From Rhodamnia argentea (taxonomy: Eukaryota > Streptophyta > Magnoliopsida > Myrtales > Myrtaceae): a DNA stretch of 64,000 bases. The notes under the pieces are model-generated. The model did not search any database. It saw nothing but the letters and a program-made list of their open reading frames with translations, and was not told where the DNA came from. The translations under genes were made by a program, and so were the position numbers. The DNA is taken from assembly GCF_020921035.1 (NCBI RefSeq), contig NC_063156.1, forward strand, positions 372,001 through 436,000. Reading direction: 5' to 3'. Shown here piece by piece: positions 3,063 to 47,153 of this stretch. The first letter of the stretch is position 1. The number at the start of each line of letters is the position of its first letter.

Positions 3063-3070
3063 TATATAAA
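3063..3070 (+). promoter_or_regulatory. TATA box of the glycosyltransferase gene
   Basis: 'tatataaa' lies 46 bp upstream of the proposed start codon at 3116. That leaves a short 5' leader. Confidence 0.5.
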
Positions 3071-3115
3071 TTCCGTGCAGATCCCCTGTGAAATCGCTCA
3101 AATCGCAAATCAGAG

Positions 3116-9859: not shown

Positions 9860-9864
9860 CCACA

Positions 9865-10299
9865 TGTAAGCTGCATTCATAAACTTTAGCGGGGCCATAA
9901 GATCAACATGATTAGATACACAAATCACAATAAAGGAGTAGAGGAATTTTACGCACCTTATTTCGAATCCATCATTCTTGATGCGGACTTGCGACTATTC
10001 GATGCTCAAGAGCTTCTCCTCTATGAACCCCCTTTATGCACCGGCTTTAACGAGACGGCGCCTTACGTATCACTTGTAACGATTCTTTATATGAGGTTAT
10101 GTGGACATTAGGGTTTAGAGGAAACACTTGAGCTCTATTTATAAAGATTTGAACATATCCCCTCATTATGAGACTTATCTCGACTCACATTATCCAACTC
10201 CATATTAGACTAAATAGGAAATTGTATATTTTTCTTTATTAGACCAATTAATATTTACAATAACAATTAATAAAGTCTATATAATAATATATTCTAACA
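9865..10299 (-). mobile_element. Solo LTR of a Copia-type fossil
   Basis: A 435-bp sequence beginning TGTAAGC and ending CTAACA, flanked by the 5-bp direct repeat CCACA (9860-9864 and 10300-10304), the classic form of a solo LTR. Orientation comes from its sister at 21510-21946, which adjoins a minus-strand primer-binding site. No internal region remains here. Confidence 0.8.
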
Positions 10300-10304
10300 C
10301 CACA

Positions 10305-10831
10305 AACCATTACTGCATATTTTGCATAAAACACTCAACGATGGAAAATCATGTGGTTGGAAATAACCGACGATCTTGTCAGATCGTTAGGCAAGCGACT
10401 TTCTAGATTTTTTGTTCGATTTGTGTAATATTAGTCAATCCTTCAAATGCTTGGACGGAAATGCTGATTTGGTAGTCAAATGGCCGTTAAATGCGCAACC
10501 AAATGGTTCCATTACCTCTCAACTAAGAATTCATCGAATCGCTTTCGGAGAAGAATTCTGCAATAGCAGGTCTTTTTGCGGGTCAACTACGCGTCAACCT
10601 ATCTTCATCAGTTTTGTGGGAAAGTAGTCAGAAGGTGGCAATCGCAATCGCTAGGGCACCACTACTTCAACTTTCAAATTCAACATGTATTGCGAAAGCC
10701 CACAATAGCTGAAGGCGAAACTAGAAAGAGAGCAGTCATAGGTGATTTCCAAAATCACCGCATTCCAGAAGCATGTGTTCCGGAAGACCGGTTTACTTCG
10801 TGGCCGGCCAGATTTATGCGCTCCTGATGTC
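10305..10831. other. Duplicated noncoding flank upstream of LTP gene 1
   Basis: Colinear with 21952-22936 apart from the indel. A short open frame at 10412-10627 has a counterpart at 21998-22273, but neither resembles a known protein. A TATA box ('tataaatt', 10832) follows, 100 bp before the LTP start. Confidence 0.5.
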
Positions 10832-10931
10832 TATAAATTGAAGGGCATTTCTTCGGTCTTAGGCATAAGCCTCGCAGGACTCGAGAGCCCAAGAAAAGAA
10901 AAGGTAAGAGAGAGCAGGCAGAGCATCAAGG

Positions 10932-11253
10932 ATGAGATCAGTGTCACGAGTGACGATGATGCTGGTGGTGGTTGTGACGATAGTGGTGACCATGAGCATC
11001 GAGTCAGTGAGCGGCCAGACGAGCCCGGGCCAGTGCAAGGAAGAGAGGAAGCAGTTGGAGACTAACTGCAGGCTGGTGATGTTCGGGAGACAGCCTACTC
11101 CCCAGTGTTGCGCGAACGTGAGGGCGACCCATCTCGAGTGTGTGTGCCCCTATGTCACCCCCAAACTCGCCGCCCTTCTCGGTGTCGATCGCACCATCAA
11201 GCAGGTCGAGGGCTGTGGAAGGACCGTACCTCACAACTTAAAGTGTGGAAGTA

Positions 11254-11289
<36 letters not shown>

Positions 11290-11459
11290 TCTGTATGTAT
11301 CTACCAACTGGCTGGAAGCTCAATGATGATCAGTTCATCTTCGTCCCCTTTTTGTTTCCATTACTGTAGTTTTATCGTTGATACTGAAGCTTTAGAACCT
11401 GCTGATGACCTAATTCTGAACGTGTCATTTTACTGGGTGCAGGTGTCACCACCCCTTGA
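10932..11459 (+). CDS. 8-cysteine non-specific lipid transfer protein-like, copy 1, 2 exons
   Basis: Exons 10932-11250 and 11443-11459 encode 111 residues. Residues 1-28 form a hydrophobic signal peptide. The mature part has the complete eight-cysteine motif: Cys35, Cys46, Cys59-Cys60, Cys70-x-Cys72, Cys95 and Cys105. This fold makes a four-helix bundle with a lipid-binding tunnel, secreted to the apoplast. The second exon supplies only the tail (SVTTP, stop), an intron position close to the C-terminus that is usual for plant LTPs. The intron begins with a long (CT)n run directly after the donor. A TATA box lies at 10832 and a poly(A) signal 'aataaa' at 11501. Its duplicate at 23037 differs at nine of 111 residues. 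No GPI signal is seen, so it is probably soluble. The ligand is unknown. Confidence 0.85.
11253..11288. repeat. (CT)n microsatellite at the 5' end of the LTP intron
   Basis: A CT dinucleotide run begins about 4 bp after the splice donor. The matching intron in copy 2 carries a run of different length and start context (about 23367-23402). Confidence 0.85.
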
Positions 11460-11506
11460 GCGAGGATCGATCCTGCAGGCGGTTGCACTATAGCTACTAC
11501 AATAAA

Positions 11507-12075
11507 GGGTTTACTTAAGTAAGAGATTATACTCAAGCGCGACGGATTTTGCTGGAGACACTCTGATGTAATGTAGCCATGGCCTGGATCAATAACAATA
11601 TGACGTCTCTCTTGTATTAGCCAATCTTCCCTTTTCTTTTCTTTCCGAAATCTATAATGGAATGCCATCCGGTGTTAAAGATTTCGAGAGAGGTGTCGTC
11701 TCGTAATTATGCTTGCCCTTGAAAATTATTCTGGATCTGTTCCGCTTGATGCATGTGACCTATAATCTTGGACCAGTTGATATAGGCCACTTAATTTCGT
11801 GACAATTTTGCATTGCTCATCAAGTTTTGACCAATTTCAAGCAATAGCAAGTTGTCGGGAAAATGCTCACCCAAGATGCCAAAACGAGCTAGGCTCGTCA
11901 TTTTTACAAGTTAAAAAGAAATGAAATACAACAAAGGTGCTTACAAAATTGTAACTTCTCAAATTTTCTACTTCTCAAAATTTTTTGAACCATCACGCGA
12001 TATCTTACGACAGATATATGTCACTTGTTTTGACCTGTCACGCTACTTTTGCCTAAATATAGAAAGTCGCTATCG
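11507..12075. other. Intergenic between LTP gene 1 and the solo LTR
   Basis: 3' flank, colinear with copy 2 at about 23620-24189. Nothing coding is seen. Confidence 0.5.
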
Positions 12076-12080
12076 AAGGC

Positions 12081-12450
12081 TGTTGGGGCGTGGGACTTAC
12101 GATGTGCGCCCATGCGGGCAATCACCCGCCCACTAGCAATCATCTGTTTTTTCAAACGTGATGAGTCACGTTCCTTTACGGACGTAAAAAGAAACGACTC
12201 CTCTCTCGTTTCTTCTGTTTGCCATTTGTTCAAGAAAACACGACAGAGAAAACGTACGCTCTCTCTCCCAAAATTTACTGTTGATTGACAATCAACATCA
12301 AGGGACTTCCAAGATCGCAAATGGGCTCTTAACCTGTGACAATTAAGGTATGTTCTCGTGATATATCATTCACGATCAATGATTCAAGTGTAACATTGGG
12401 CATGTTTTCGCAATTAGATTTTAGATCTAAATAGGGTTTTGTACCCATCA
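12081..12450. mobile_element. Solo LTR inserted after the segmental duplication
   Basis: A 370-bp sequence starting TGTTGGGGCG and ending CCCATCA. Flanks are AAGGC (12076-12080) and AAGGT (12451-12455), a target-site duplication with one mismatch. Copy 2 has the uninterrupted site AAGGC followed directly by AAATT at 24190-24199, so this LTR arrived after the duplication. It is a solo LTR of unassigned family and relatively young. Confidence 0.8.
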
Positions 12451-12455
12451 AAGGT

Positions 12456-13111
12456 AAATTCCCCCCATGCGAATTGACAACAAGGTTAATACACTGTTCC
12501 AACAATATAACTGTTATACATAGACGAAAACTATACTGTACAAATTTTTGGTAGATTTGTTACGGATAAGAACATTGCTTTCATGTTTAAAACACGCCTC
12601 CTTGATTTGTTTATAGACATATTTTGAGCCCCCAATAAGAATAACTCCAGCTAGATGCGTACATATGGGTCCATGACGGATCTGGTCTACAAGTGAATGA
12701 ATGCGGCCTGCGACTCTTCCACAAGTCCACACTACAGTGTATAATGGGAACCCCGACGTTGACTTTAGCTTTTGACTGACCAAAAACGTAAGTGATTTAG
12801 GATGACATGTTCGGCTGATTTCCACGAAATTAGTGAGAAAATCACAGCAGAAGCATAGAATGGTGGTGATGACTGATGAATGATGATGGTGGTGGTGCTT
12901 GTTGTTGCAACAATTTTGGGATAATTATTTTTTTTATGACATTCATGCAACTTCATTATGTTGGCCTAGGTATCTTCTCTTTTGTCTTTGACAAATACCA
13001 TCGGTTGACTCGGAAAAATTCGCCCGGCGCACAATTTGAGCTCGCCGCCAGGCTAAATCGACGTTGACCAGATTCGTGGAGAAGACAAGACAGCACGACG
13101 AGAAAATATTC
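12456..13111. other. Intergenic, duplicated, upstream of the LTP relict
   Basis: Colinear with about 24195-24850. No gene is visible; it includes a 'gatggtggtggtgcttgttgt' type simple stretch. Confidence 0.45.
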
Positions 13112-13380
13112 TATATAAGCACTCGGCACTGCTTGATCCCGATTGCGGAGTTATTCGCCATCAACCAACTCGATGATTGAATAGAATAATCCGAAAGCTG
13201 GAATATGATGGTGGTGATAGTTGTGCTTTGGTTGGTGATATGGGGTGTTTGGGATGTTGCTACAGTGACTCTGAGCAGTGCAAGGAGGAGAGAAAGGTAT
13301 CAAGGAGGTGTGCCCATGCCGGCCATCACTCCGGTCAGAGTGTGTGTTTGCCCCATCATTCCTCGTTGGAAAATTATCAA
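13112..13380 (+). pseudogene. Broken third LTP gene, copy 1
   Basis: A TATA-like 'tatataag' (13112) precedes ATG at 13205. The first 23 codons give a hydrophobic leader (MMVVIVVLWLVIWGVW), then homology to the LTP genes switches to the frame of 13177 with QCKEERK, identical to the LTP 1 Cys35 block. It switches again to VCVCP, matching the LTP ECVCPY block. At least two frameshifts therefore separate recognisable pieces. Homology then stops where a dispersed repeat begins, removing the last two cysteines. A nonfunctional relict of the same LTP family, older than the segmental duplication because copy 2 has it too (24942). Confidence 0.7.
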
Positions 13381-13830
13381 AAAAAAAATCCTAAATTTAT
13401 TGCATTTATGCCAACTCAATCTTGAATATTTCAATTTGCCCAATTTAATCGTAAATCTTTTGACAATTTATCAATGTAGTTCATTCAGCCAATTTTGATC
13501 GGATATTGAAGAAGAGAACATTAGCCATTTTACATTACATGGCTAACGCTCACATGAAAAATTCTTATATTTTTAATTTCCTATCCTTTCTTTTTTTCTT
13601 TTCTTTTTATTTTTAAGGGCGGAAATCTGCTAGCTACCGAATGAGAGCAACAAGCTCTTGCCAACAGCTAATGAAGTTAGGAGGGCTCGTGACCCTTGCT
13701 CGGATTTGGGTGAGGGCTCGCAACCCCCACTCGGAGTTGGGCGAGGGCTGCGACTCTCTCCGTGGTTGGCGAGGACTTGTGGGTGAGGGCTCGCCGGGCC
13801 TTGATTAGTGGCCAGCGGGAACAATAAAAA
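13381..13830. repeat. Dispersed repeat copy with AT-rich and 'gtgagggctcgc' halves
   Basis: The AT-rich part (13385-13560) shares phrases with 8640-8995 and 55830-56000. It is followed by a GC-rich part (13675-13800) with 'gggtgagggctcgcaaccc' repeated in variants. It interrupts the LTP relict. The duplicate is at 25080-25530. Confidence 0.6.
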
Positions 13831-14295
13831 GGAAACAAAATTATTTTTTCAAAAAATTCAAAACTTTTCCATGTCATCGTCTACTGGTTATATAGAATGG
13901 CCGGCATTCAAGTCATCAATATCCCGTCAAAATTGGCCGGATAGACTACAATGGGAATTGTCAAATACTGATTGGTCTAGCCGTTCAAGTTGTGCTTATA
14001 ATCTGAGATAAATCATCGGCTCTCGGTCACTTTTTTCCTATTATAGATTTGTGGAGGAAGATGGGCCGGCCTTTTTGGCACAACAGAGAAAAATAAAATT
14101 AAAGCAATTTTGCATTTTGCCAAAAAGACCCAGCATTTAAAAAGTTTTTGAAATTCGGCAGCCGAGGAGGGAAAGTCCAGCTCCGGTCTCCAGCAGTTGC
14201 AGTGCAGATGCTCGAAGTCGAAGCCTTCACCTCCGCGCTTAGGCTTGTGCTGCGACTGCGTAAGCGTCTTTTTCGCTCCCGAAAACCTCGAAGAG

Positions 14296-15944
14296 ATGTC
14301 GAGCGAAAATGCCGACGCCTCGTCTCAAGAACAAATCACGGAGACACAAATGGCTCGAATCTCCCAAAAGTTCCGAGCTGCCAAGGCCCTGCTCGCTCGC
14401 AAGCGCCCTTCCCTCTCTCCCTCCTTCCCCGACCCTCTCCGCCGCAGGTACGGTCGATCTCCATATGTCACTCGCTTCGCTCCTCTTGCACCTTCTTCTC
14501 TTGCCGATACTTAGGTTTTATGCAATCGATTCCTTTTGGTGCTCAGTGATTGTATGCATTCGGTCGTGTCGAACTCAGGCTTGAAAATGCGATTACGCGT
14601 TCCCCACTATCGAGCATCCAAAGAGTTCCTCTTTCGGAGATCTCGACGAACACACCATTGTCGAAGGGATTTGAGCCGCTAGATAGCGGTCTAAGTGAGG
14701 TTAAGTCGGTCAACGAGATTCGAGAGGCGAGGATTAGTGGATGGGACGGATGCGAATTGGATTCTTTTAGGACTTCGGTGAAACAAGCTGAATGCTGCAG
14801 CGTTGGGGATTCGTTTTCAAATTGTAGCGTTCTAGACGATGCTTTTTACGATGTCCTCTTGGAAGAGCTTGATGCATTGTCAGAAGGCAAATCTTCGGCA
14901 TGCGGGTCAGGAGGTCACGGTGGCCTCGTTCAAGGGGAATCGTCAGCTCAAGTAAGCTGCCCTGCTGATCTTGACACCGGTGCCGCTTTTGTTGCTGTTG
15001 ACGACAACACTGGGAGTGGTAACCAAGGAAGTCCTAATGATGATGACTTTAGGGTTGTAAAGAGCACGAGCATGCCTGAAGGGTACTCAAAATACTTGGA
15101 TTCTCTAAATGAAAGGCAGCAAGAAGCGGCTTGCACTAATATCTCAGTTCCTTTGATGATTGTTGCTGGTCCAGGCAGTGGAAAGGTCTTCTTCTCTCTT
15201 GTCGTTTTGTTTCTTCCACTCCTCCCAAAAAGGATTTACCATTTCTTCCGCAGCAAAGATGACTCCCTTTCTTTCTTTCTCATTTCAGACTTCAACAATG
15301 GTTGGGCGCATTTTGACATTACTTAATCAGGTACTTCCTACTGCATCATTGGATTGTTCGTCTTTGGCATAAAACAACGAGCTAGCTCTTCTACTTTCTA
15401 TTTGAACTTTTTTTTTGTCCTTTTTATGTTCCAATTAGCAAGTCCTATGTGATTTTTCGCTTCAATTAAAGTTGAAACAGTTCATATCTCCGAGTTCGTG
15501 GAATGTCTCACATCTCAATTAAGTATTCTTTCTTAACCGATACTTTTTCCAGGGTCTTGATCCTTCATACATTCTTGCAATGACTTTCACTACTGCAGCT
15601 GCTTCTGAAATGAGAGACAGAAATGGAGCTATTGCTGGGAAGGAAGCAGCTAAGGACCTTACAATCAGCACATTCCATTCATTTTCTTTGCATATCTGGC
15701 GCAGTCATGCTGAAAAGTACACTTCTTTTATTTTTCCTTTTTCATTCCAAGATCTATACCTTTAAAGAGAACATACTTTTTGCCTCTGGGTTTGTGTATG
15801 AAAGCAGTATATTGGTTGCATGTTCTGTAGTCCCAATGTTGGTTTTTAAATCTCCTCCCAGCATTCACCAGAGCTTCCCATATTTCACAAATATATGATT
15901 CACTTCCAATTTTCATCTTTCCTTCAGGATCGTCTTTGTTCCAA
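14296..15944 (+). pseudogene. Truncated SRS2-like helicase gene, exons 1-4 only
   Basis: Exons 14296-14447, 14579-15185, 15289-15330 and 15553-15716 match exons 1-4 of the full gene at 26001, with the same splice sites and lengths. All four remain open. They encode about 321 residues, including the Q motif (LNERQQ) and Walker A (GPGSGKT), but the block ends at 15944 in intron 4. Motifs II-VI are therefore absent and no unwinding activity is possible. Reading through intron 4 reaches a stop at 15763-15765, for a 337-residue product. In exon 2 I count nine amino-acid differences from the full copy against roughly six silent ones, consistent with relaxed constraint on one or both copies. Whether it is transcribed is unknown; the upstream region is duplicated too. 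Confidence 0.85.
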
Positions 15945-21063: not shown

Positions 21064-21509
21064 TTGAGCTGCGCAGGTCAGATGTCAATGGTGGACCGTG
21101 GCTGGGGGAAGGGAGGGGAGGGTGAAAAGGAACAGAAAAAAGGAAAGGATAAAATGAAAAGAAAAGGAAAGCAGAAAAAAAATTGCAAAAAAAAGTAAAA
21201 GACAAAAATACCCTTCGGCCAGACCCTTATTTGAAATGAAGAGGGCACTTTAAGCCCTTATTTGAAACAAAGTCCACTTAAAGCTCTTATTTGAAAAAAT
21301 CGGAACAGTTGAGGCCCTTAATTGGAATTTTCCCTCTGTTCAATCATTGAATCGTTGTCAAATTTTTCGCGCAAGAGGGGTGGTTAATTAATACCCCAAA
21401 ACTCCTGAATCAAAGCATCAATGATATATTTTACCGAATAAAATTCTGAAAAAAAAAAATACCCAAAACGTGAATTCGTGACCTAAATCATATCGGCTCT
21501 GATACCACA

Positions 21510-21946
21510 TGTAAGCTGCGATCACAAACTTTAGCAGTGCCACAAGATCACCATGATTAGATACATGAATTATCGTAACGAAGTAGAGAAATTTTACCCA
21601 CCTTATTTCGAATCTATCATTTTTTATGCGGAATTGCGACGATCCAATGCTCAAGAGCTTCTTCTCTATGAACCCCTTTTATGCATTGGCTTCAATGAGA
21701 CGTCCTTTCACGTATCGCTTCCGACCATTCTTTATGTGAGGTTATGTGGACATTAGGATTTAGAGGAAGAACTTGAGCTCTATTTATAGAGATGGAAACC
21801 TATCCCCTCATTATGAGGCTTATCTCAGCTCACACTATCCAACTCCATATTAGACTAAATAGGAAACTTTATATTTTTTCTTTATTAGACCAATTAATAT
21901 TTACAATAATAATTTAATAAAGCCTATATAATAATATATTCTAACA
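21510..21946 (-). mobile_element. Copia LTR, sister of the solo LTR at 9865
   Basis: 437 bp, TGTAAGC to CTAACA. The right flank CCACA matches the target duplication seen in copy 1; on the left it adjoins a primer-binding site. It is therefore the 5' LTR of the minus-strand fossil listed at 17040-21946. Confidence 0.8.
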
Positions 21947-22436
21947 CCACACACCATTACTGCGTATTTTGCATAAAACACTCACCGATGGAAAATCATG
22001 CGATTAGAAATAACCGACGCTACTATTAGATTGTTAGACAAGCAGCTTTCTAGATTTTTCTTTGATTTGCGTAATATTAGTCAGTCCCTCAAATGCTTGG
22101 ACGGAAATGCTGATTTGATAGTCAAATGGCCGTTAAATGCGCAACCAAATGGTTCCATTACCTCTCAAGTAAGAATTCATCGTATCACTTTCGGAGAAGA
22201 ATTCTGCAATAGTAGGTCTTTTGCGGGTCAACTACGCAGTCAACCTATCTTCATCAGTTTTGTGGGAAAGTAGTCAGAAGGTAACTTATGCAATCGCAAT
22301 CGCAATCGCTGGGGCAGCACTACTTCAACTTTCAAATTCAACATGAATCGCGAAAGCCCACAATAGCTGAAGGCCAAACTAGAAAGAGAGCAGTCATATG
22401 TGATTTCCAAAGTCACCGCATTCCAGTAGCTAACCT

Positions 22437-22872
22437 CTACTCTACGTTCAAGAATTACCTTTCAACTTTATTATTGTTCAGTATAGATGTTATTTAAGAA
22501 CGTTCATTTCGACTCTAGAAGAAGTTATTAAATCATGCATTTTGCTGGATATATAACGTAAGTTTTCCTCCATTTGATACTTCACACATTCAAGAGATAA
22601 TATAATTTTCTTGTCTTTGTCCGGTTTTCGCATGAATATGGGTGTTTAGTATGTGTTAGGTCACCGAAATTATTTATGAAGTTTATGCATGACTCCAATA
22701 TGAATGTTGTCTTCTACACATTGTTGTAGTTTTAACTGCGCTTCTATTGAAAAGTCTCGTTACTAACACGATTTTCCTAGGTCTCCCAACGTAACATCAA
22801 CACACTACTGGATCATTTTTTCCATGTCGTAAATTCCTTGGTCTTGGACATCTTTTGCGTAGATGTCAACAT
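22437..22872. other. Segment of about 430 bp present only in duplication copy 2
   Basis: Copy 1 joins 'cgcattccag' directly to 'aagcatgtgttccgg' (about 10770). Copy 2 has about 430 bp between these anchors. I see no terminal repeats or clean target duplication, so a deletion in copy 1 is as likely as an insertion here. It contains no gene. Confidence 0.7.
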
Positions 22873-23036
22873 AAAGCATGTGTTCCGGCGGACCGGTTTA
22901 CTTCGTGGCCGGCCAGATTTCTCCGCTCATGATGTCTATAAATTGAAGGGCATTTCTTCGGTCTTAGGCATAAGCCTCGTACGACTCGAGAGCCCAAGAA
23001 AAGAAAAGGTAAGAGAGAGCAGATAGAGCATCAAGG

Positions 23037-23363
23037 ATGAGATCAGTGTCACGAGTGACGATGATGCTGGTGGTGGTTGTGACGACAGTCGCGACCATGA
23101 GCATCGAGTCAGTGAGCGGCCAGCCGAGCCCGGGCCAGTGCAGGGAAGAGAGGAAGCAATTGGAGACTAACTGCTGGCCGGTGAGGTTCGGGAGACAGCC
23201 CTCTCCCCAGTGTTGCGCGAACGTGAGGGCAACCCATCTCGAGTGCGTGTGCCCCTATGTCACCCCCAAACTCGCTGCCCTTCTCGGTGTTGATCGCACC
23301 ATCAAGCAGGTCGAGGGCTGTGGAAGGCCCGTCCCTCACAACTTAAAATGTGGAAGTACGTCG

Positions 23364-23405
<42 letters not shown>

Positions 23406-23573
23406 GTGTGTGTCTACCAACCGGCCGGAAGCTCAATGATGATCAGTTCATCTCCATCCCCTTTTTTGTTTCCATTACTGTAGTTTTATCGTCGAAACTG
23501 AAGCTTTAGAACCTGCTGATGACTTGACTCTGAACGTGTCAATTTACTGGGTGCAGGTGTCACCACCCCTTGA
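23037..23573 (+). CDS. 8-cysteine non-specific lipid transfer protein-like, copy 2, 2 exons
   Basis: Exons 23037-23355 and 23557-23573 encode 111 residues with the same signal peptide length and all eight cysteines (35, 46, 59, 60, 70, 72, 95, 105). TATA box at 22937 and 3' flank match copy 1. Nine substitutions separate the pair; several are non-conservative (for example R47W, L48P, M50R) and sit in the loop between the second cysteine and the CC pair, away from the cysteine scaffold. Both copies look functional as secreted lipid-binding proteins, and the changed loop may alter ligand preference; that is inference. The intron again starts with a CT run. Confidence 0.85.
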
Positions 23574-24849
23574 GCAAGGATCGATCCCGCAAGCGGTTGC
23601 GCTATAGCTACTACAATAAAGGGTTTACTTGAATAAGAGATTATACTCAAGCGCGACGGATTTCGCTGGAGACACTCTGATGTAATGTAGCTATGGCCTG
23701 GATCAATAAAACTATCACGTCTCTCTTGTATTAGCCAATCTTCCCTTTTCTTTTCTTTCCGAAATCTATTATGAAATGTCGTCCGGTGTTAAAGATTTCG
23801 AGAGAGGTGTCGTCTCGTAATTACGCTTGCCCTTGAAAATTATTCTGAATCCGTTCCGCTTGATGCATGAGACCTATAATCTTGGACCAGTTGATATCGG
23901 CCACTTAATTTCATGAGAATTTTGCATTGTTCATCAAGTTTTGACCAATTTCAAGCAATAGCAAGTTGTCAGGAAAATGCTCACCCAAGATGCCAAAATG
24001 AGCTAGGCCCGTCATTTTTACGAGTTAAAAAGAAACGAAATACAACAAAGGTGCTTACAAAATTGTAACTTCACAAATTTTGTACTTCTCAAAACTTTTC
24101 AAACCATCACGCAATATCTTATGACAGATATATGCCACTTATTTTGACCCGTCACGCTACTTTTGCTTAAATGTAGAAAATCGCTATTGAAGGCAAATTA
24201 CCCCCACGTGAATTGACAACAAGGTTAATACACTGTCCCAACAATATAACTGTTATATATGTATAGACGAAAACTATGCTGTACAAATTTTTGGTAGATT
24301 TGTTACGTACAAGAACATTGCTTTCATGTTTAAAACACGCCTCCTTGATTTGTTTGTCATTATAGACATATTTTGAGCCCCCAATAAGAATAACTCCAGC
24401 TAGATCCGTACATGTGGGTCCATGACGGATCTGGTCTATAAGTGAATGAATGTGGCCTGCGAGTCTTCCACAAGTCCACACTATAGTGTATAATGGGACC
24501 CTCGACGTTGACTTTAGCTTTTGACTGACCAAAAACGTAAGTGACTTAGGATGACATGTTCGGCTGATTTCCATGAAATTAGTGAGAAAATCACAGCAAA
24601 AGCATAGATTGGTGGTGCTGACTGATGAATGATGATGGTGGTGGTGCTTGTTGTTGCAACAATTTTGGGATAATTATTTTTTTTATGACATTCGTGCAAC
24701 TTCATTATGTTGGCCTAAGTATCTTCTCTTTTGTCTTTGACAAATACTATCGGTTGACTCGGAAAAATTCTCCTGGCGCATAATTTGAGCCCGCCGCCAG
24801 GCTAAGTCGATGTTGACCAGATTCATGGAGAACGATGAGAAAATATTCT

Positions 24850-25079
24850 ATATAAGCACTCAGCATCGCTTGATCCTAATTACGGAGTTATTCGCCATCA
24901 ACCAACTCGAGGATTGAATAGAATAATCCGAAAGTTGGAATATGATGGTGGCGATAGCTGTGCTTTGGTTGGTGATATGGGGTGTTTGGGATGTCGTTGC
25001 GGTGACTCTGAGAGGTGCAAGGTGGAGAGAAAGGTATCAAGGAGGTGTGCTCGTGCCGACCGTCACTCCTTGTTGGAAA
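24850..25079 (+). pseudogene. Broken third LTP gene, copy 2
   Basis: Duplicate of the relict at 13112-13380. 'tatataag' near 24850 and the leader MMVAIAVLWLVIWGVW (ATG 24942) are kept, but the cysteine-block remnant is shorter: the stretch matching VCVCP is missing. More decayed than its sister. Confidence 0.65.
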
Positions 25080-25530
25080 ATTATCGAAAAAAATCCTAAA
25101 TTTATTGCATTTATGCCAATTTAATCTTGAATATTTTAATTTGCTCAATTTAATAGTAAATCTTTTGACAATTTGTCAATGCAATTCATTTAGCCGATTT
25201 TGACCGGATATTGATGAAGAGAACGCTAGCCATTTTACGTGACATGATTGACGCTCACATGAAAAATTCTTATTTTTTTAATTTCCTTTCCTTTCTTTTT
25301 TTTTTTTTCTTTTTATTTTTAAGGGCCGGCATTTGCGAGCTACGGGATGAGAGCAACAAGTTCTTGCCAACAGCTAATGAAGTTAGGATGGCTTGTGACC
25401 CTCGCTCAGATTTGGGTGAGGGCTCGCAACCCCGACTCAAAGTTGGGTGAGGGTTGCGACTCTCTCTGTGGTTGGTGAGGACTTGTGGGTGAGGGCTCGC
25501 CGGGCCTTGACCAATGGCCGGCGGGAACAA
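25080..25530. repeat. Dispersed repeat copy, duplicate of 13381-13830
   Basis: Same AT-rich plus 'gtgagggctcgc' arrangement as copy 1, carried along by the segmental duplication. Confidence 0.6.
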
Positions 25531-26000
25531 TAAAAAGGAAACAAAATTATTTTTTCAAAAAATTCAAAAATTTTCCATGTCATCGTCAGGTGGCTATATA
25601 GAGTGGCCGGCGTTCAAGTCATCAATATCCCGTCAAAATTGGCCGCATAGACTACAATGGAAATTGTCAAATAGTGATTGGTCTAGCCCTTCAAGTTGTG
25701 CTTATAATCTGATATAAATCATCCGCTCTCGGTCACTTTTTTCCTATTATAGATTTATGGAGGAAGATGGGCCGGCCTTTTTGTCACAACAGAGAAGAAA
25801 AAAAAAAATTAAAGCAATTTTGCATTTTGCCAAAAAGACCCAGCATTTAAAAAGTTTTTGAAATTCGGCAGCAGAGGGGGGAAAGTCCAGCTCCGGTCTC
25901 CAGCAGTTGCAGATGCTCGAAGTCGAAGCCTTCACCTCCGCGCTTAGGCTTGTGCTGCGACTGCGTAAGCGTCTTTTTCGCTCCCGAAAACCTCGAAGAG

Positions 26001-29000
26001 ATGTCGAGCGACAACGCCGACGCCTCGTCTCAAGAACAAATCACGGAGGCACAAATGGCTCGAATCTCCCAAAAGTTCCGAGCTGCCAAGGCCCTGCTCG
26101 CTCGCAAGCGCCCTTCCCTCTCTCCCTCCTTCCCCGATCCTCTCCGCCGCAGGTACGGTCGATCTCCATATGTCACTCGCTTCGCTCCTCTTCCACCTTC
26201 TTCTCTTGCCGATGCTTGGGTTTTATGCAATCGATTCCTTTTGGTGCTCAGTGATTGTATGCATTCGGTCGTGTCGAACTCAGGCTTGAAAATGCGATTA
26301 CGCGTTCCCCACTATCGAGCATCCGAAGAGTTCCTCTTTCGGAGATCTCGACGAACACACCGTTGTCGAAGGGATTTGAGCCACTAGATAGCGGTCTAAG
26401 TGAGGTTAAGTCAGTCGACGAGATTCGAGAGGCGAGGATTAGTGGACGGGACGGATGCGAATTGGACTCTTTTAGGACTCCGGTGAAACAAGCTGAATGC
26501 TGCAGCGTTGGGGATTCATTTTCAAATTGTAGCATTCTAGACGATGCTTTTGACGATGTCCTCTTGGAAGAGCTTGATGCATTGTCAGAGGGCAAATCTT
26601 CGGCATGCGGGTCAGGAGGTCACGGTGGCCTCGTTCAAGGGGACTCGTCAGCTCAAGTAAGCTGCCCTGCTGATCTTGACACCGGTGCCGCTTTTGTTGC
26701 TGTTGACGACTACACTGGGAGTGGTAACCAAGGAAGTCCTAATGATGATGACTTTAGGGTTGTAAAGAGCACGAGCATGCCTGAAGGGTACTCAAAATAC
26801 TTGGATTCTCTAAATGAAAGGCAACAAGAAGCGGCTTGCACTGATATCTCAGTTCCTTTGATGATTGTTGCTGGTCCAGGCAGTGGAAAGGTCTTCTTCT
26901 CTCTTGTCATTTGTTTCTTCCACTCGTCCCAAAAATGATTTACCATTTCTTCCGCAGCAACGGTGACTCCCTTTCTTTCTCATTTCAGACTTCAACAATG
27001 GTTGGGCGCATTTTGACATTACTTAATCAGGTACTTCCTACTGCATCCTTGGATTGTTCGTCTTTGGCATAAAACAACAAGCTAGCTCTTCTACTTTCTA
27101 TTTGACCTTTTCTTTTGGTCCTTTTTATGTTCCAATTAGCAAGTCCTATGTGATTTTTTTTTTTTTGGTAAAGAAGTCCTATGTGATTTTTTGCTTCAAT
27201 TAAAATTGAAACAGTTCATATCTCCAAGTTCGTGGAATGTCTCACATCTCAATTAAGTATTCTTTCTCAACTGATACTTTTTCCAGGGTCTTGATCCTTC
27301 AAACATTCTAGCAATGACTTTCACTACTGCAGCTGCTTCTGAAATGAGAGACAGAATTGGAGCTATTGCTGGGAAGGAAGCAGTTAAAGACCTTACAATC
27401 AGCACATTCCATTCATTTTCTTTGCAACTCTGCCGTAGTCATGCTGAAAAGTACACTTCTTTTATTTTACCTTTTTCATTCCAAGATCTATACCTTTAAA
27501 GAGAACATACTTTTTGCCTCTGGGTTTGTGTATGAAAGCAGTATATTGGTTGCATGTTCTGTAGTCCCAATATTGGTTTTTAAATCTCCTCCCAGCATTC
27601 ACCGGAGCTTCCCATGTTTCACAAATATATGATTCACTTCCAATTTTCATCTTTCTTTCAGGATCATCTTTGTTCCAATGTTGACATCTCTTTCGCAAAA
27701 TTCTTATCCTAATTATTTCCCTCTCATAATGAAGTATTGACTTATTTAAAGTTTGATTTGATTGTTATATAGGATAGCACGTACAACAGAGTTTCAGATA
27801 TTTGGCCATGGACAACAGAGAAAAGCAGTAATTGAGGCCATAAGATTGTTAGAACAAGAAAATAACAAACACAATAATGATGTGGGTGACCTTTTTGAAG
27901 ATCCCAATGGCTTGACATCTCCTCAGCATTTCAAGGATAGATCAAAGAAGTGGCAGAAGTTTGTTACTCAGGTCAGTGGCCAGCTATGCAGCATTTTGCT
28001 TGAAGTTTAAAAATCATTCTCAGATTCTCAGTTTTGGGCTACAGTAAAATTTATCTTCATATAAGAAAGAAATATCATCTCTCAGTTGATGTCATCTCCT
28101 AGATTTCGCAGATATTCATGCCATGTGATTTGGTTAAAGGTGAAAGGTGCAGATAAAGCATAGGGAAGGGGAACGCTTTTTCACAAGCACAATTTTGGCA
28201 CTCCTAAAACTACTCTTTTTTGGGAAAATTTATTGCTTTTCCAGTGAAAAAAGTACGGGGGCACTGTACATGTCAAGGCACTTGTGCTCTCTCTTTCAGG
28301 CTAAAGTTTTTGGAGGGAGAGAGTGAGAATAGGCCACTTTCTATGTCATGGCACCGTTTTCTCTTTGAGGCTAAAGCTTCTCTTCTCTTTGGTTGTGGGG
28401 GGGGGTGAGAGGGAGGGAGTATGGTTCATGAAGGGTCCATGGCACTTCAAATCATTCATCTTATTTTGTTTGGATTATGTGTATCTTACGGACTATAAAT
28501 GACTCCTAGGTTTGTGTTTGAGTTGGTTTCTAGTACCTTTTCACCTTTCAACGAGCAACAAAGTCCAAGCAAGTACATGTTTGTGGCTTCTTGAATCTAC
28601 TTGTTTTTGTTTGGATATCATCTGTTTGACCTGGGAAAAAGTATAAAGGTACTTTTTCAAAACATTAGGCTCTCTCTTTCAGGCTAAAGCTTCCGGAAAA
28701 ACACCTCGAGATTGCAGTAAGCCGGGCAATGATACTGGAGTAAGCTGATTCTCTTTTAGATATATCTTCAGCTTAAATATTAAAGTTCGCTCCTTTACTT
28801 TCTTTTGTTATTCTGCTGTTGAGTTCTTGTTTTGACCTTAATTAGGCTGCAATTCTTCACAACTACAATGATATATTGAGATCTTGTAATGCTTTGGATT
28901 ACCATGACCTAATTAGCTGTTCCGTGAAGTTGCTCACTGATTTTCCAGAAGGTCAGTACTTCCTATATATGAAGTCCTCAAATTAGTAACTATTGTTCAA

Positions 29001-39899: not shown

Positions 39900-40180
39900 A
39901 CATCCCTTAGACGTACAATGTAGAAGCAATATAAGGGTTAGCGACGCCCTCACCGGCCACAGCAAGGGTTCGCCAGATCTAGCTCACCTCCAGTTGCTAC
40001 CCTCGGCCCCAGCTGGTGAGGGCTTCGTGGCCCTCACCTAAGGGCCAGCTGCCGGCCCTTTGAACAAATAAAAGGGAAGAAAAAAAGATTTTTGGGCAAA
40101 ATGTGAAAATATTTAGGGTTCAATTGATATAATTAAAAAGTTTAGGGTTAAATTGGTAAGAGTATAGTAGATTTATGACT
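39900..40180. repeat. Dispersed repeat copy, 'gccctcacc' form
   Basis: A GC-rich part with 'gacgccctcaccggcca' and 'ggtgagggcttcgtggccct' is followed by AT-rich 'tagggttcaattgatat... tttagggttaaattgg'. This is the same two-part family as 13381, in inverted order. Confidence 0.55.
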
Positions 40181-40349
40181 TTTTTTATTTTACCCGTCCT
40201 TATCGTGCGGCCTTTGTAACACATGCCTATCTCGCATATTTGGGTCATGGACCCTTTTTATTTATTTTATCTATTTTAAAGATGACAAGCTCCTCACCTC
40301 ATTTTTCACCTTTTGGTTTGTTTCTATCTCACACGGGCTTCTCGATGTC

Positions 40350-40450
40350 AAATGTTGGGCCGGGAAGCCCAAGCCCAAACCCAAAAGAACAAGCCGTTGG
40401 AAATGTGCTCCCCGTTCCGGCGATGCGATTGCGGAGACGATGAACCCTAG
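40350..40450 (+). promoter_or_regulatory. Site II plus telo-box promoter of the snoRNA locus
   Basis: Three TGGGCY site II elements (TGGGCC at 40356; AGCCCA, its reverse form, at 40366 and 40372) are followed by a telo-box core AACCCTAG at 40443-40450. This combination is typical of plant ribosome-biogenesis promoters, including snoRNA clusters. An ATG at 40440 opens a 54-codon frame with no recognisable product; I do not call it a gene. Confidence 0.6.
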
Positions 40451-40636
40451 CGATCGTCTCTTCCCCTGCAGCGGCTGCTCTTTACTATCACTTCTTTCGC
40501 CAAGCGCGGCGATCGGCGAAGCTCTCTCGATCCAGTCGTCGCTACACGGAGGATTCAGATGCTATTTCAATTGCGGAATACTGCGATTGCTTGAAAAGCG
40601 TGGGGGATAATCTAGTTTTGTTTATCATGTCAGGCG

Positions 40637-40719
40637 GAGGCCAGTGATGATCTTCTTATAGTCTTGCCTACATTGCCTGACTATATCTATGATTATGTCA
40701 TTGACTTTTCTGAGGCCTC
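40637..40719 (+). ncRNA. C/D-box snoRNA, copy 1
   Basis: The 83-nt unit has a perfect 6-bp terminal stem (GAGGCC 40637-40642 with GGCCTC 40714-40719), box C GTGATGA (40644-40650), internal D' CTGA (40677-40680), a C'-like ATGATTA (40689-40695) and box D CTGA (40710-40713). All elements are in the order and spacing of methylation guides. The sequence before D', 'cttgcctacattg', is complementary to 'caatgtaggcaag', which I recall from plant 25S rRNA. If right, it would guide 2'-O-methylation at the nucleotide pairing five bases before D', the U of AAUGU. The D-side guide target is unknown. Gene name not assigned. Confidence 0.8.
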
Positions 40720-40936
40720 TTGGCTAAGATATAATGCTTTGGTTTGATTGGCTTAAGAAACTATGAGCTACAGCTTGGTTTAAATCCCTTGCTTTTTTTC
40801 CTCTATAGAGTCGCTAAAGTCTTTTTCTTTTGTAGCACCGAATTCTCTTTCTACGTTGGCTTTGGTTGGTTTTCTTTGGTGTCCTGTCTTGATATGGACA
40901 ATCCCGTTTTGTTTGATTTCTGTTTTTGTGTTAGTG

Positions 40937-41017
40937 GAGGCCTGTGATGATCTTCTTACAGTCTTGCCTACATTGCCTGACTATACGTATGATTATGTCA
41001 TCGACTTTCCGAGGCTC
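40937..41017 (+). ncRNA. C/D-box snoRNA, degenerate copy 2
   Basis: This repeats copy 1 exactly 300 bp downstream. Box C GTGATGA (40944-40950), D' CTGA (40977-40980) and the D' guide are unchanged, but box D reads CCGA and the 3' stem strand is one base short (GGCTC). It is likely impaired or a decaying duplicate, although the conserved D' guide might still be used if the terminal box tolerates the change. Confidence 0.65.
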
Positions 41018-42780
41018 TCTATATTTTGGTTTGATCGCTTGAGGACACTTTTCTGTTTTTTCAACTCGTTTATCGTTCTCGCCCTTTCGTAAAGCTTGAT
41101 TCAATATAGCTTAAGTATAGCTTAAGGACACTTTTCTGAGATGGCCAGGCTGACTTCACAAATATGAATTTCCTTAAGTTGGTATCAAAATTCTTTGTCA
41201 GGACTGTCACTCTGCTGCTGTAGAATCTTATACGACTCTTTAGCTGTTTTGAGCTTTCTCCAGTCTGTTTATTTACTGTTTTGGAGCTTGCGGATTGCCT
41301 TGTGATGGGGACGTGCTTCATGCTTGGGCACTGCCTGTGATGCATTTGGATACAGTACGTGAGTCCAGCAAAGACTGCACAGAGTTCCGAAATTGCGAGT
41401 GCAGAATGCAGAAAAAGATACGAGAATGATGCAACTGGATGAGCCCTACAGAGATTGAATTCTGGGGTTGTGAAGAGCTTGGGAATCAAATGCATTGTTG
41501 GCTTCAACTGAGCATGCTTTTCCAATGAAAATGCCTTTCGGGCATGTGAGGTCTGGCCAGTGGCGTGGACATCAATAAGTCTGGGGGTTCTTTAAATTTG
41601 GGGTCACTCTTAACCATCTTTGTGTAGATTTCTTTGCAGACATCATGTGGTCCATCTACTCTTTTTAACTTCTCAGATGTCCTCTTGGACAAGTCTCTTG
41701 CTGTTGCAGAAATGGGTGGAAACTTTACACGTTAATACGTGCAGCAGTAAGTCAACTTCCATTTTGTTCCGTGTTAAGATCTAAGCGATGGGAATAAGCA
41801 AGCAATAAGCTGATCAAAGTTTCTGATCTTCAGTTATGACATTTTTATGACTGGCATCCAAAAATCATGTTGCTTGACCGGATTGGAATTCGCTGTTCGG
41901 TGTGCAGGCCGACGTCGCCACGTGTGTTGGTGGGTCGGCCGGTGGGAAATTAAGCACCACAAGGAGTGGAGGGTGGACCATTCCTCCATTTCTCCCAAGA
42001 TATTTCTCACGGCGCACTGAAAATTGAATGTTCGCGTTATGATCCCAGTTCTTCTCGCAAGAAATAAGAAAGTACTCCAATAAAACTTCGATCTGAAATA
42101 CGGACACTCGATTGTGAAAATACAAATGTATGTAAACTCGAATGGAAACAAAACTGGTAAAATCTATATATTCAACGGAAATCTTTCGTTCCTTGTTACT
42201 TTAGTTTCTATGCCGACATAGAGGCACATATTCTTTTCATAAATGCAAAGGGCCACTTCTTCCGGAATCAATTTCAGGCCAAGTTCTGGAAAATAAATAT
42301 CCAAGTAAATTTTGCCATATTGCTACTTTACAACTCCTTAGAACAGCAGAAATCCCCACCTGAATAAAAAGAATAGAGTCCGCTGCTCATTGCATAAACT
42401 AAGCTTCAATGGGAGATTATTTGCTTTGGTGGTAACAACGATGGAACGTGTACTACTTGCCAAATTCACACGTTTTCCATTCTTCGACCGTGAGGTCAGC
42501 TCAAACATGACATTGTATTTGGTGATGGCAACCTAGACATGACATCATTCTTAATCGACGTGAGCGCAAAAAAGCGAATGCCCTCAAGCTGAAGACGGTG
42601 AAGTACCAATTTGGTGGGAATAACTTTCATCTTGAAGCAGAAGAGATAACATAGACGTTCAACGTTCGAACTCATTAGCCGTAGGACACGAGCAAATTAA
42701 GAAAAAACGAAAAATCAAAAGGCAAGACTCGAACTGAAATGGGCAGCAATCAAATGGATGTCAATTCTTTAAGTTGAGAG
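41018..42780. other. Intergenic, no supported gene
   Basis: A minus-strand frame of 151 codons (41070-41525) overlaps this region but has no recognisable domain. Further snoRNAs could lie here; I could not find another convincing C/D pair with a terminal stem. Confidence 0.4.
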
Positions 42781-42998
42781 GCGGTGGTGCGTGCAGTGCA
42801 CGGCGTCATTGAAAGCCCCAAATGTTTGTGGGCACACTTATCTGAGATCCCGACAAGTATTGTATCCCACCATTTAAATTTTTCTAAGTGTCAAGTCACG
42901 GGCGTTCCTATCAACATCAACCCACAAAAATGCAGCACTCGGTTACATGCCCCTATATATCTCACAGGTCACACGCCACTAACCGCCTTTTTCCGCTC

Positions 42999-43006
42999 TA
43001 TATAAA
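42999..43006 (+). promoter_or_regulatory. TATA box of the glycine-rich protein gene
   Basis: 'tatataaa' lies 56 bp upstream of the ATG at 43062. Confidence 0.6.
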
Positions 43007-43061
43007 ACTCGCTCCCATCCAAGATAAGCACAAATCTGGAATTGCATTTGCCCCCTCAACT

Positions 43062-43520
43062 ATGTCACAGTTCCTTCTCTTCGCCGTGCTCTTGGCAATA
43101 GCCTTCTCATCGTCGGTGAGTTCTGCGAGGACGTTAGCCGCGGCTGACATGTCCACGGGCCAGGCCGGCGGAACCGAGAGCCCAACAGGTGCCACTGGCT
43201 CAGGCCACGGCCCCAACTGGGACTACAACTGGGGCTGGGGTTCAAGCCCCGGGAGTGGCTGGGGCTTCGGTTCGGGGTCTGGCCGCTCGCCTACTGGATT
43301 CGGCAAGGGATTCGGGTATGGTTCTGGCTCGGGGACAGGATCAGGATCTGGGTTCGGGTATGGTTCGGGTGGAGGTGCTCGCGGCGGAGGCTACGGGTTT
43401 GGAAGCGGCTCTGGCAGATCTGGAGGTGGTGGATCAGGCAGCTGGAGCAGCAGTTCTGGTGAATCCGGCTCCGGCAGTCACTCCCCATCCTACTCTAGAG
43501 ACAGAGACCACCTTGGTTAA
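43062..43520 (+). CDS. Secreted glycine-rich protein, single exon
   Basis: 152 residues. Residues 1-23 form a signal peptide (hydrophobic FLLFAVLLAIAF, cleavage near SSA-RT). After a short Thr/Gly spacer with DYNWGWG, the rest is Gly/Ser-rich with FGYGSGSG and GFGSGSGR repeats, ending in a Ser-rich, charged tail (YSRDRDHLG). Such proteins are wall-structural or defence-associated in plants. I chose this ATG rather than the longer in-frame start at 42888 because it follows the TATA box at leader distance and begins the signal peptide. Low complexity prevents a more exact family call. Confidence 0.8.
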   Translation: MSQFLLFAVLLAIAFSSSVSSARTLAAADMSTGQAGGTESPTGATGSGHGPNWDYNWGWGSSPGSGWGFGSGSGRSPTGFGKGFGYGSGSGTGSGSGFGYGSGGGARGGGYGFGSGSGRSGGGGSGSWSSSSGESGSGSHSPSYSRDRDHLG

Positions 43521-43538
43521 TATGGCAGGCCATATTAA
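43517..43538 (+). terminator. Perfect 10-bp inverted repeat over the GRP stop codon
   Basis: TTAATATGGC and GCCATATTAA are separated by AG, so a compact hairpin would include the stop codon. The role is unknown; it may be chance. Listed as a possible 3'-end structure. Confidence 0.3.
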
Positions 43539-45332
43539 GCTTACGAAAGAGCTTACCTTCTATAGAAAATACAGAGTCCCCATGTACGAGATGATGTTTT
43601 CAGCCTGAGATATAGGTATATATGGGCAGAATAATGTCAGCAGGATAGTACCAATGTCCATCTTTTATACTACTAATACTACCAGAATTAGCAATGTATG
43701 TTCTGGATCACATGCCCGCACATATTAACTGAGAGCAGCCCAATAGCCGTAACCAAACAAAAGTCGGTCGGTCGGTCAGTTCCGGTCCAAATAATCTGTG
43801 TCCTCAACTTCCAAGCAAAACCAACATCAAGTCTCCTTTGTTTTTGGAAGGATAGAATTTCAATAAGGAATCCCATGGAAAGAGGCATTCCTCACACCCT
43901 TAAAGTAAAGAAAATTAAATAAAACTGTGGTCAATGAGACTAACGACTCCATAAACAGATACATCCATCTCAAATCATTAAATTCACTCGATACACCAAA
44001 AGAGAAACACAGCTTACACATGATCGTACAAATTGACCCTACCATGCTCCAGCTACATTTGGAACCGAGTATACTGCAAAATCTCTCGGTCATCATAGAG
44101 CATTTGATCTAAACACAACCATGAGATTCAATCGCTTCTGAATCGTGAGTCCAATCCCAATATTTTGATTGGATCAGTAAAGATAAAAACAAAGGAACGA
44201 GCAACTACTACGCTGAAATATCCGCTCTCCAGCAATAACAAATGCCAAAACAATAACAAGCAATGACAAAGCAAACATAACAAAGACGTGTTGTTGCGCT
44301 TCTGAGCCATGAGCCTTCAGCTTCCACATGGGAATGCATGAACAACTTCAACAAAATAGCCAAGCCAAGCCTAGCCTGGTCCCAAACGATCCTTGGGCAT
44401 AACCATTATTCGATTCACAGGTACGTCCCTGGGTCTAAAAAGGTCAACGACTTGATAACATAGATGAGGGGTAAAACATATTGGTCAAAACTGTAAAGGA
44501 GCACGCTGTCAGAGCCCATTAGCATACCTCATCACCACATTCCTATTAAAAGCTGTGGTCTCGTCAAGCTCAATATGTGTATCTATTCAGATCGAATCAG
44601 CTTCAGTAAAATAAACCAACTAATTACCATCACTGCTGCTGATGTCGAGCACTTCAACCTTGTCCAGGCATATCTGAAGCCTTCATATTAGAAAGCCAAC
44701 TATCTTCACAATGAGATCCATGCGGATAAAACTTCTCTCCTGACCAATTTTAAAAATTGAAAATGCACAGTTTTGTTGAAATTGCTTGCAAAATCTGGAT
44801 GGTGCGGAGCAAAGAGAGATGGATCATAGTTTTTTGCTTTTCCAAAAATTGTAACCATGACTAAGCCAAGATATGATAAAAAGTAGATTAGAAGCATGAT
44901 TTTGCAGCAGCACAGCCCTTCCAAGGGAAAAAAAATTTTGGATCAAAAGTGAGAGCCACGCAAAAGAAGGGTAAGAAACTTAAGCTTTAAACAGCCAAAA
45001 GATAATTCTCCCTCCCTGCAATTCTATAAATAAAACTTTGTCAATACCTCTCTCTTATCCTTTGCAGGTAAAGAAACAACCGCCAGATAAACATGCATAG
45101 CTAAAGTTGAGTAACTTTAAAACCATTTGTACAATCCTTCATCAGCTCTGGGAAGCAGAGTGTCATGCAACTTTCTGTGAAATAGATCCATCAAGACAAA
45201 GTCAATATTCCAGCATGATTGCTGATATTACCGACTGTTCTCCAACAAATTTACAACTGATGAAGTCAGAAAACAAACACTAGATTCCATATAGCAATGT
45301 CAAAAAGGGAAATGTATATTCCAGCATGACCT
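43539..45332. other. Region between GRP and SUVH genes
   Basis: No supportable gene. The right part is probably the 3' UTR or flank of the minus-strand SUVH gene; short frames only. Confidence 0.45.
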
Positions 45333-47153
45333 CTAACGACTTCGTTCTTCATTGGGACGCTTTTCTTTACATGCTACAGTATTACAGTAACATTTCATCC
45401 TTTGCAGGACATCAGCACAACGAACATGGCTAACTGTGTAATCAAAAGTCAACTCTGTTAATGGCAGTATGTCTTTCGAAGCAAAAAACTTTATGTGAGG
45501 CATGCTCTTGTCGTCGTGATCATAGAGCACATTTTGTGCATACAGATTTGGAGAGCAACTGTGGTTGATAAACCTCCCAATGTTTCCATTTGCCTTGGCA
45601 TCAATAGTAAAGTACTCACCATTCTCCTCATGGGTGGCACCAACAACCCCGATATTAAAGAAGTACTGGTGTTTGTTGAACTCCGGCGAGGCTAACACAT
45701 CTGGAAGTACTTTGCCAATGTACTCGCAGACAAAACTTCCTAACGGGATGTGTGACCGTGATCTAACGCCCCACCCCTTTCCTCGAGTTTGAAATATCTC
45801 TAGGTCAAACTTGATGCCGCTTTGGCTCGCTCTGTTTATGCAAGAGTGCGAGCAAGAACAGTATGGGCCACACTCATAAACAAGGGGCTTAAACTTGGAA
45901 ATTCTTCCATCCTGTTTGTATGGCAATTCCCTTCCATTCTTTATTGCACAAGAACATATCATGGAATGACATCCTTCCTCGCAATTGCAACCGATTGGAG
46001 GAGACAGATCCTTTTGCTCTGGATAGATGATATCAACAATGTAATTAAAAGGCGAAGGTCCATCCTTACCAACTGCACCGGAAACTCGAATCGGTACCTT
46101 TTCTCTCCCTCGAGATATATCATCCACACAAACACGTTCAAGAGCTCTTGAAACATTCGAAGTCCCATCATGGCTATTTCTCGTCAAGTCTCTGGTCAAT
46201 CTGAACATGTACATCAGCTTTCCGAAAGGCCCTCTTTCTATCCAATACCGTCGCACGTAGAATATACCTTGGTAAACATACTTGCAGTTAGAAAGTCTCT
46301 CGTGGTTGGCATGCCTAGGGCCAGAACCACACTTCGTAAGCTTATATCTGCGAACAAAGCGCACGGGATGATTGGAATGCATGCTATTCCTCAGGGCAAG
46401 ATTACCCCCACTAAGCTTTTGATCCTTGAGGCAACCCCTTCCCCCGAATACACGGTTTCCACCTTCGCCACAGTAAATTACCTCATCTTTGGACTTCATG
46501 CAATTTGAGTATTGGCCAGACTCAACAATACTCGTGGCATAAGGTTTCCCGTCCTTCGATACCCAATCTATGCCTTTCACAATTTGACCGTGAACGCCAG
46601 TCACAACCAGCTCGGCCCTACAACAGAACTCCTGCCCTATTTCAACACCAGGCACAGGGCCTCGCAATTTCCCAGGATTAACACACTTCTTTGACATTTT
46701 CATTCGCTCCAAAGCCTCGCTAAAAACTGAAATTCCAGAGTCTTTTTCAAACACATGCTTTGACTTCCGCGCACCTTTAACCTCTTCAAAAATCTTGTGA
46801 AACGCGCGAACCGCCTCCTTCACCTTCATCTGATCACTAACACCTTCCTTGCCTTGAGCAGCAGAAGTTCTCAAGTCTCTCCTCCCAACACCACCGCAAG
46901 CATCAACGTAGGGCACTTTGGCAGAATTTACCTCAGTAGGACGCGTCTTCGAGCGCACTGGAACGGCGACCGCGGCTTCATCGTCCGGTTTGGAGTAAGA
47001 AGCACCGGCTCCGTCCAAACGACTCTTGGATGAACAGCCACCTTTGCCTCCTCCATTCTCTGCGGACTCGGTGCGTTCGTCTGGTTTACGACATCCTCCG
47101 GGGCTGTCAACTCTCAGTCGCTTTCCCAGGGAGTGAAACCTCCTATCTCCCAT
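45333..47153 (-). CDS. SUVH-type histone H3K9 methyltransferase (SUVH5/6-like), intronless CDS
   Basis: 606 residues in one exon. The N-terminal ~105 residues are low-complexity and basic. VKEAVRAFHKIFEEV (111-125) is the helix preceding the SRA/YDG domain (about 163-320; GPVPGVEIGQEF, then YATSIVESG), which binds methylated cytosine. Pre-SET cysteines run from GCNCEEGC (388-395) to about 438. The SET domain has GWGVRS (460-465), FINHSCSPN (528-536) and ELTFDY (567-572), covering the cofactor and catalytic signatures. The post-SET is CYCNTVAC (588-595). The pathway is H3K9 dimethylation coupled to DNA methylation in chromatin. The N-terminus is shorter than in typical SUVH5/6 proteins. All catalytic motifs are present, so it should be active. 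SUVH5/6 versus other SUVH subclasses is judged from the SRA and pre-SRA text only. Confidence 0.92.
   Translation of the reverse strand: MGDRRFHSLGKRLRVDSPGGCRKPDERTESAENGGGKGGCSSKSRLDGAGASYSKPDDEAAVAVPVRSKTRPTEVNSAKVPYVDACGGVGRRDLRTSAAQGKEGVSDQMKVKEAVRAFHKIFEEVKGARKSKHVFEKDSGISVFSEALERMKMSKKCVNPGKLRGPVPGVEIGQEFCCRAELVVTGVHGQIVKGIDWVSKDGKPYATSIVESGQYSNCMKSKDEVIYCGEGGNRVFGGRGCLKDQKLSGGNLALRNSMHSNHPVRFVRRYKLTKCGSGPRHANHERLSNCKYVYQGIFYVRRYWIERGPFGKLMYMFRLTRDLTRNSHDGTSNVSRALERVCVDDISRGREKVPIRVSGAVGKDGPSPFNYIVDIIYPEQKDLSPPIGCNCEEGCHSMICSCAIKNGRELPYKQDGRISKFKPLVYECGPYCSCSHSCINRASQSGIKFDLEIFQTRGKGWGVRSRSHIPLGSFVCEYIGKVLPDVLASPEFNKHQYFFNIGVVGATHEENGEYFTIDAKANGNIGRFINHSCSPNLYAQNVLYDHDDKSMPHIKFFASKDILPLTELTFDYTVSHVRCADVLQRMKCYCNTVACKEKRPNEERSR

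Follow-up and report, generated by a model that had tools for sequence, protein, structure and literature searches.

The analysed window, a stretch of 64,000 nucleotides from Rhodamnia argentea, carries on its forward strand a tandem pair of box C/D snoRNA genes of the U34/SNORD34 family, preceded by short motifs that probably belong to their promoter (Table 1). When the whole window was compared with all 4227 Rfam families, only two gathering-level matches were obtained, and these are the two members of the pair (39.9 and 38.6 bits, with E-values of 0.00033 and 0.0007, respectively), both scoring above the gathering cut-off of 38 bits for the SNORD34 model (RF00147). A genome-wide search with this model, covering 347 Mb in 74 contigs, scored 68 of 48494 candidates and so gives a lower bound; it returned at least three matches, all above the cut-off, namely both window copies and C7:2890726-2890810.

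Table 1. Features of the U34/SNORD34 locus, in window coordinates
Feature	Position	Strand	Remarks
Site II motifs (three: TGGGCC, AGCCCA, AGCCCA)	40356..40377	+	Last two kept in the paralogous locus, first not
Near telo-box GAACCCTA, 7/8 letters of AAACCCTA	40442..40449	+	Kept in the paralogous locus
U34/SNORD34 box C/D snoRNA, copy 1	40637..40719	+	Rfam RF00147, 39.9 bits; C, D' and D boxes, 6-bp terminal stem
D' guide of copy 1, CTTGCCTACATTG, complementary to 25S CAATGTAGGCAAG	40663..40675	+	Identical in 4/4 genomic copies found
U34/SNORD34 box C/D snoRNA, copy 2	40937..41018	+	Rfam RF00147, 38.6 bits; D box CCGA
D' guide of copy 2	40963..40975	+	Sequence identical to the guide of copy 1

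Everything required of a box C/D snoRNA, that is the C, D' and D boxes as well as the terminal stem, is present in copy 1. The C box GTGATGA occupies 40644-40650, the D' box CTGA 40677-40680 and the D box CTGA 40710-40713, and the stem is formed by GAGGCC (40637-40642) and GGCCTC (40714-40719) with six out of six Watson-Crick pairs; the C' box, read by eye as TATGATT, is degenerate. A preliminary description of this DNA had taken copy 1 for a full C/D guide with a perfect 6-bp stem, and the boxes, the pairing and the Rfam score bear this out. A rule combining RTGATGA, CTGA and a Watson-Crick stem of at least 5 bp yielded a mean of 0.05 sites per 64 kb on first-order Markov sequence and none when the stem was set to 6 bp (40 simulated windows each). 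Applied to the real window, it recovers copy 1, with its 6-bp stem, and two matches with 5-bp stems (C boxes at 11323 and 23436) that fall in two ORFs which are tandem duplicates of each other; copy 2 escapes the rule because its D box is CCGA.

Copy 2 has its C box at 40944, its D' box at 40977 and the non-canonical D box at 41009-41012, where copy 1 has CTGA. Its position exactly 300 bp beyond copy 1 and its altered D box had both been pointed out earlier, and both are confirmed. Neither a canonical CTGA in the D position nor a full terminal stem is found in this copy, the six stem positions being G-T, A-C, G-T, G-C, C-G and C-G, which amounts to three Watson-Crick pairs, two G-U pairs and one mismatch. 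With such a D box and a weak stem, the function of copy 2 is doubtful.

The D' guide of copy 1 forms 13 nt of pairing with CAATGTAGGCAAG, a stretch present in published plant sequences, for example from okra, which we take to be fragments of 25S rRNA; on this identification, the 13-nt match to 25S put forward in the preliminary description holds. On examination of the pairing, the A at 40672, fifth base before the D' box, is seen to face the U of CAAU in the target. As a separate observation, published entries named miR2118, miR160 and miR408 presumably are also fragments of 25S rRNA. These entries include the U34 target stretch (PMC5147431, PMC5770470, PMC5831935). The okra sequence GGTCGATGGAACAATGTAGGCAAGGGAAGTCGGCAAAATG contains the 13-mer (PMC5831935), which occurs within longer published stretches as well (PMC3333172, PMC5770470, PMC5147431), and in these four papers the sequences bearing it are listed as small RNAs, miRNAs or precursors.

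In Arabidopsis, 25S U1892 has been assigned to the guide U34 by RiboMeth-seq (PMC8053127), and the predicted target U of the window, the same base that had been named earlier as the methylated one, fits this position. Older assignments link AtU34 to Um1882, human U34 to Um2824 and yeast snR62 to Um1886 or Um1888, and the site is given as common to Arabidopsis, human and yeast (PMC3511168, PMC8817022); a U34 gene is therefore expected in a plant. The rRNA references were revised in PMC8053127 and no longer agree with earlier ones; we infer that U1892 and Um1882 denote one site. Within the searchable genome the CAATGTAGGCAAG 13-mer occurs ten times, four times in snoRNA copies and six times elsewhere, and the 3-kb loci around these six other sites gave no gathering-level Rfam match. 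In five rDNA regions, 2500-3901 of the 6401-6501 bases are N where 18S and 25S would be expected, and four 25S probes were unmatched. For the D-side guide, a search for a second target in a 180-nt piece containing 5.8S found no match reaching 6 nt.

A DNA search revealed one other place in the genome related to the pair, C7:2890410-2890821, situated 2.5 Mb away on the opposite strand with 90 % identity. This paralogous locus holds the same two snoRNAs, 294 bp apart, of which copy 1 scores 40.4 bits and copy 2 scores 36.2 bits, the latter below the 38-bit cut-off. The similarity between the loci extends in pieces from about 40119 to 43616 and so takes in the promoter region as well as the part where a glycine-rich ORF lies (42888-43520). 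An alignment of the four copies from both loci showed the stretch of guide and D' box to be identical throughout. In the same alignment, copy 1 is nearer to copy 1 of the other locus than to its own neighbour and the two copies 2 share several bases, so that the tandem pair is most likely older than the duplication of the locus.

With gap columns set aside (0 in copy 1, 6 in the spacer and 1 in copy 2), identity between the loci is 81 of 83 columns for copy 1, 188 of 211 for the spacer and 74 of 82 for copy 2. Conservation in copy 1 exceeds that in the spacer (Fisher p 0.019), whereas copy 2 shows no such excess (p 0.84). Only two differences separate the copies 1, one private to each locus, and none of them affects the C, D' or D box. 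A chance resemblance, or a pair of functionless pseudogenes derived from U34, would be in keeping with the non-canonical D box of copy 2; the Rfam scores, the second locus with the same pair, the identity of all four guides and the conservation of copy 1 argue so strongly against such an origin, however, that we consider it very improbable.

Differences between the two loci are found both in copy 2 and upstream of the pair. The D box of copy 2 is CTGA in the paralogue, and it is the window's copy 2 that has the most private columns in the four-copy alignment (five, as against four for copy 2 of the paralogue, two for copy 1 of the window and one for copy 1 of the paralogue, where one of those of window copy 1 is a gap at the alignment end and one of those of paralogue copy 2 lies outside the snoRNA). 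A TATAAA is seen in the paralogue shortly past the telo-like motif, within a stretch of about 36 bp that is missing from the window between similar short flanks and may have been deleted there. These features would be expected if the window locus were a decaying duplicate that has lost its TATA and the D box of copy 2, with most U34 RNA made from the locus at C7:2.89 Mb. Copy 1 of the window is, however, intact and conserved, its few differences from the paralogue being evenly divided between the loci, and the window's copy 2 even outscores that of the paralogue; on balance, we regard decay of the whole locus as unlikely. A divergence in output after duplication, which we put forward tentatively as a possibility of low probability, would make the window a weaker, TATA-less unit producing copy 1 only and leave full expression to the other locus, with copy 2 on its way to a D'-only guide or a pseudogene.

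Polycistronic snoRNA genes of plants usually have a promoter that combines site II elements with a telo-box, and permutations of AAACCCTA are counted as well (PMC4660826). Upstream of copy 1, at 194-281 bp, the window has three site II motifs (starting at 40356, 40366 and 40372) together with GAACCCTA. Of the window's 49 site II sites, no other three lie within 40 bp. No AAACCCTA itself occurs near the pair. The preliminary description had placed promoter motifs typical of such genes 190-290 bp upstream; the site II elements are indeed there, but the telo-box is one letter off. Telo-box permutations (AACCCTAA, ACCCTAAA and CCCTAAAC) are present at 40112-40120 and 40140-40149, which in a literal reading brings them under a rule of telo-box and site II within 1 kb, and they have no counterpart at the corresponding position of the paralogue. 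A site II within 1 kb accompanies 15 of the window's 16 telo clusters, so this rule has little force here, and it is chiefly the close spacing and the conservation of the site II triplet that speak for a promoter. The combination of AACCCTA with a site II within 150 bp recurs twice elsewhere in the window, at 12.4 and 57.5 kb. None of the eight TATA-like hexamers taken from PMC4660826 occurs in 40300-40640 on the forward strand, and another study gives 24 of 26 promoter-predicted snoRNA genes as being without expression (PMC8053127). On this evidence, a promoter upstream of the pair is probable.

The ORFs of at least 60 aa in the 36-46 kb interval include none that was recognised as a protein host for the snoRNAs; three of them, at 41070, 43062 and 45333, were compared with Pfam. 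Downstream of the pair, the two loci agree in 178 of 189 ungapped columns of 41300-41500, and the paralogue carries several hundred extra bases between its promoter region and copy 1, of which about 500 bp (L026 4842-5342, reverse strand) are absent from the window locus. A leader thus need not be short, and both observations would suit a longer non-coding host transcript, reaching the downstream block (about 41130-41860) and bearing the pair in its intron(s) or exons, instead of a short dicistronic precursor. The block does not significantly exceed the spacer in conservation (p 0.075), however, four downstream stretches fold no more stably than their shuffles (z -0.17 to 0.77), and a search for further snoRNAs over 41020-42700 with relaxed Rfam thresholds gave only two matches, both at chance level. 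Taken with the lack of a recognised protein host, these results render a long host transcript rather improbable. A protein encoded in the conserved block was considered and rejected, as the ORF 41070-41525 on the reverse strand has no Pfam match and the loci differ in it by an 11-bp indel among other changes. A transposon origin of the extra bases in the paralogue was likewise not upheld, since searching the genome with a 501-bp stretch of them gave no match elsewhere.

Two further observations concern the wider surroundings. Some 6 kb are duplicated in tandem (9860-15944 and 21505-27678), the copies lying about 12 kb apart with 88-93 % identity in three pieces, and the ORFs of this duplication include lipid-transfer-like ones with the LTP_2 domain at 10932 and 23037, along with those at 14550 and 26255, which have no Pfam match. 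On the reverse strand, 45333-47153 is an ORF of 606 aa with SRA, Pre-SET and SET domains, presumably a SUVH-like histone methyltransferase.

Clusters are the norm for plant snoRNA genes (PMC4660826, PMC5122169). Because of this norm, the absence of a recognised protein host and the promoter motifs common to the paralogue, an independent dicistronic unit would be the likeliest arrangement for the window pair. The preliminary description had likewise called the locus independent and dicistronic rather than intronic, a view that gains from the missing host and the shared motifs and is weakened by the imperfect telo-box and the lack of a TATA-like hexamer. We thus consider it highly probable that the window pair forms an independent transcription unit of the plant snoRNA type, in which U34 (SNORD34; yeast snR62) is present twice in tandem and copy 1 would guide methylation of 25S rRNA.

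The family, the guide and the boxes are directly observed; that the promoter is used and that the RNA is transcribed, processed and active in methylation in this species is inferred. RNA polymerase II would transcribe the unit from a promoter within about 40350-40560, and cleavage and trimming of the precursor would then release snoRNAs of about 83 nt. C/D snoRNAs assemble with fibrillarin and other C/D core proteins, and copy 1 is expected to join these. Through pairing of its D' guide with 25S rRNA, the U in CAAUGUAGG would then become 2'-O-methylated (Arabidopsis U1892, older Um1882). Copy 2 has the same guide and a mutated D box, and its contribution is therefore probably small.

For annotation, the gain consists of two U34 genes, or four with the paralogue, and a probable ribosome-biogenesis promoter, and the duplicated dicistrons offer a small natural case on the decay of redundant snoRNA copies. 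No description of a U34 tandem pair was found in the open-licence literature searched, a non-exhaustive set from which its absence is not claimed. With the plant polycistronic snoRNA genes described in PMC4660826, the locus shares upstream site II and telo-like motifs, tandem snoRNAs and the lack of a recognised protein host; it differs from them in that its proximal telo-box is one letter off, a TATA-like hexamer is lacking and both snoRNAs belong to one family. Compared with SNORD34/U34 itself (RF00147; Arabidopsis AtU34, yeast snR62), the copies are alike in box layout, D' guide, the target U in large-subunit rRNA and size, and no substantive difference was noticed, although the D-side half departs in parts from the Rfam consensus and copy 2 carries CCGA. 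The observed pair thus combines a known family, a known target and the usual plant organisation, and is unremarkable among snoRNA genes of plants.
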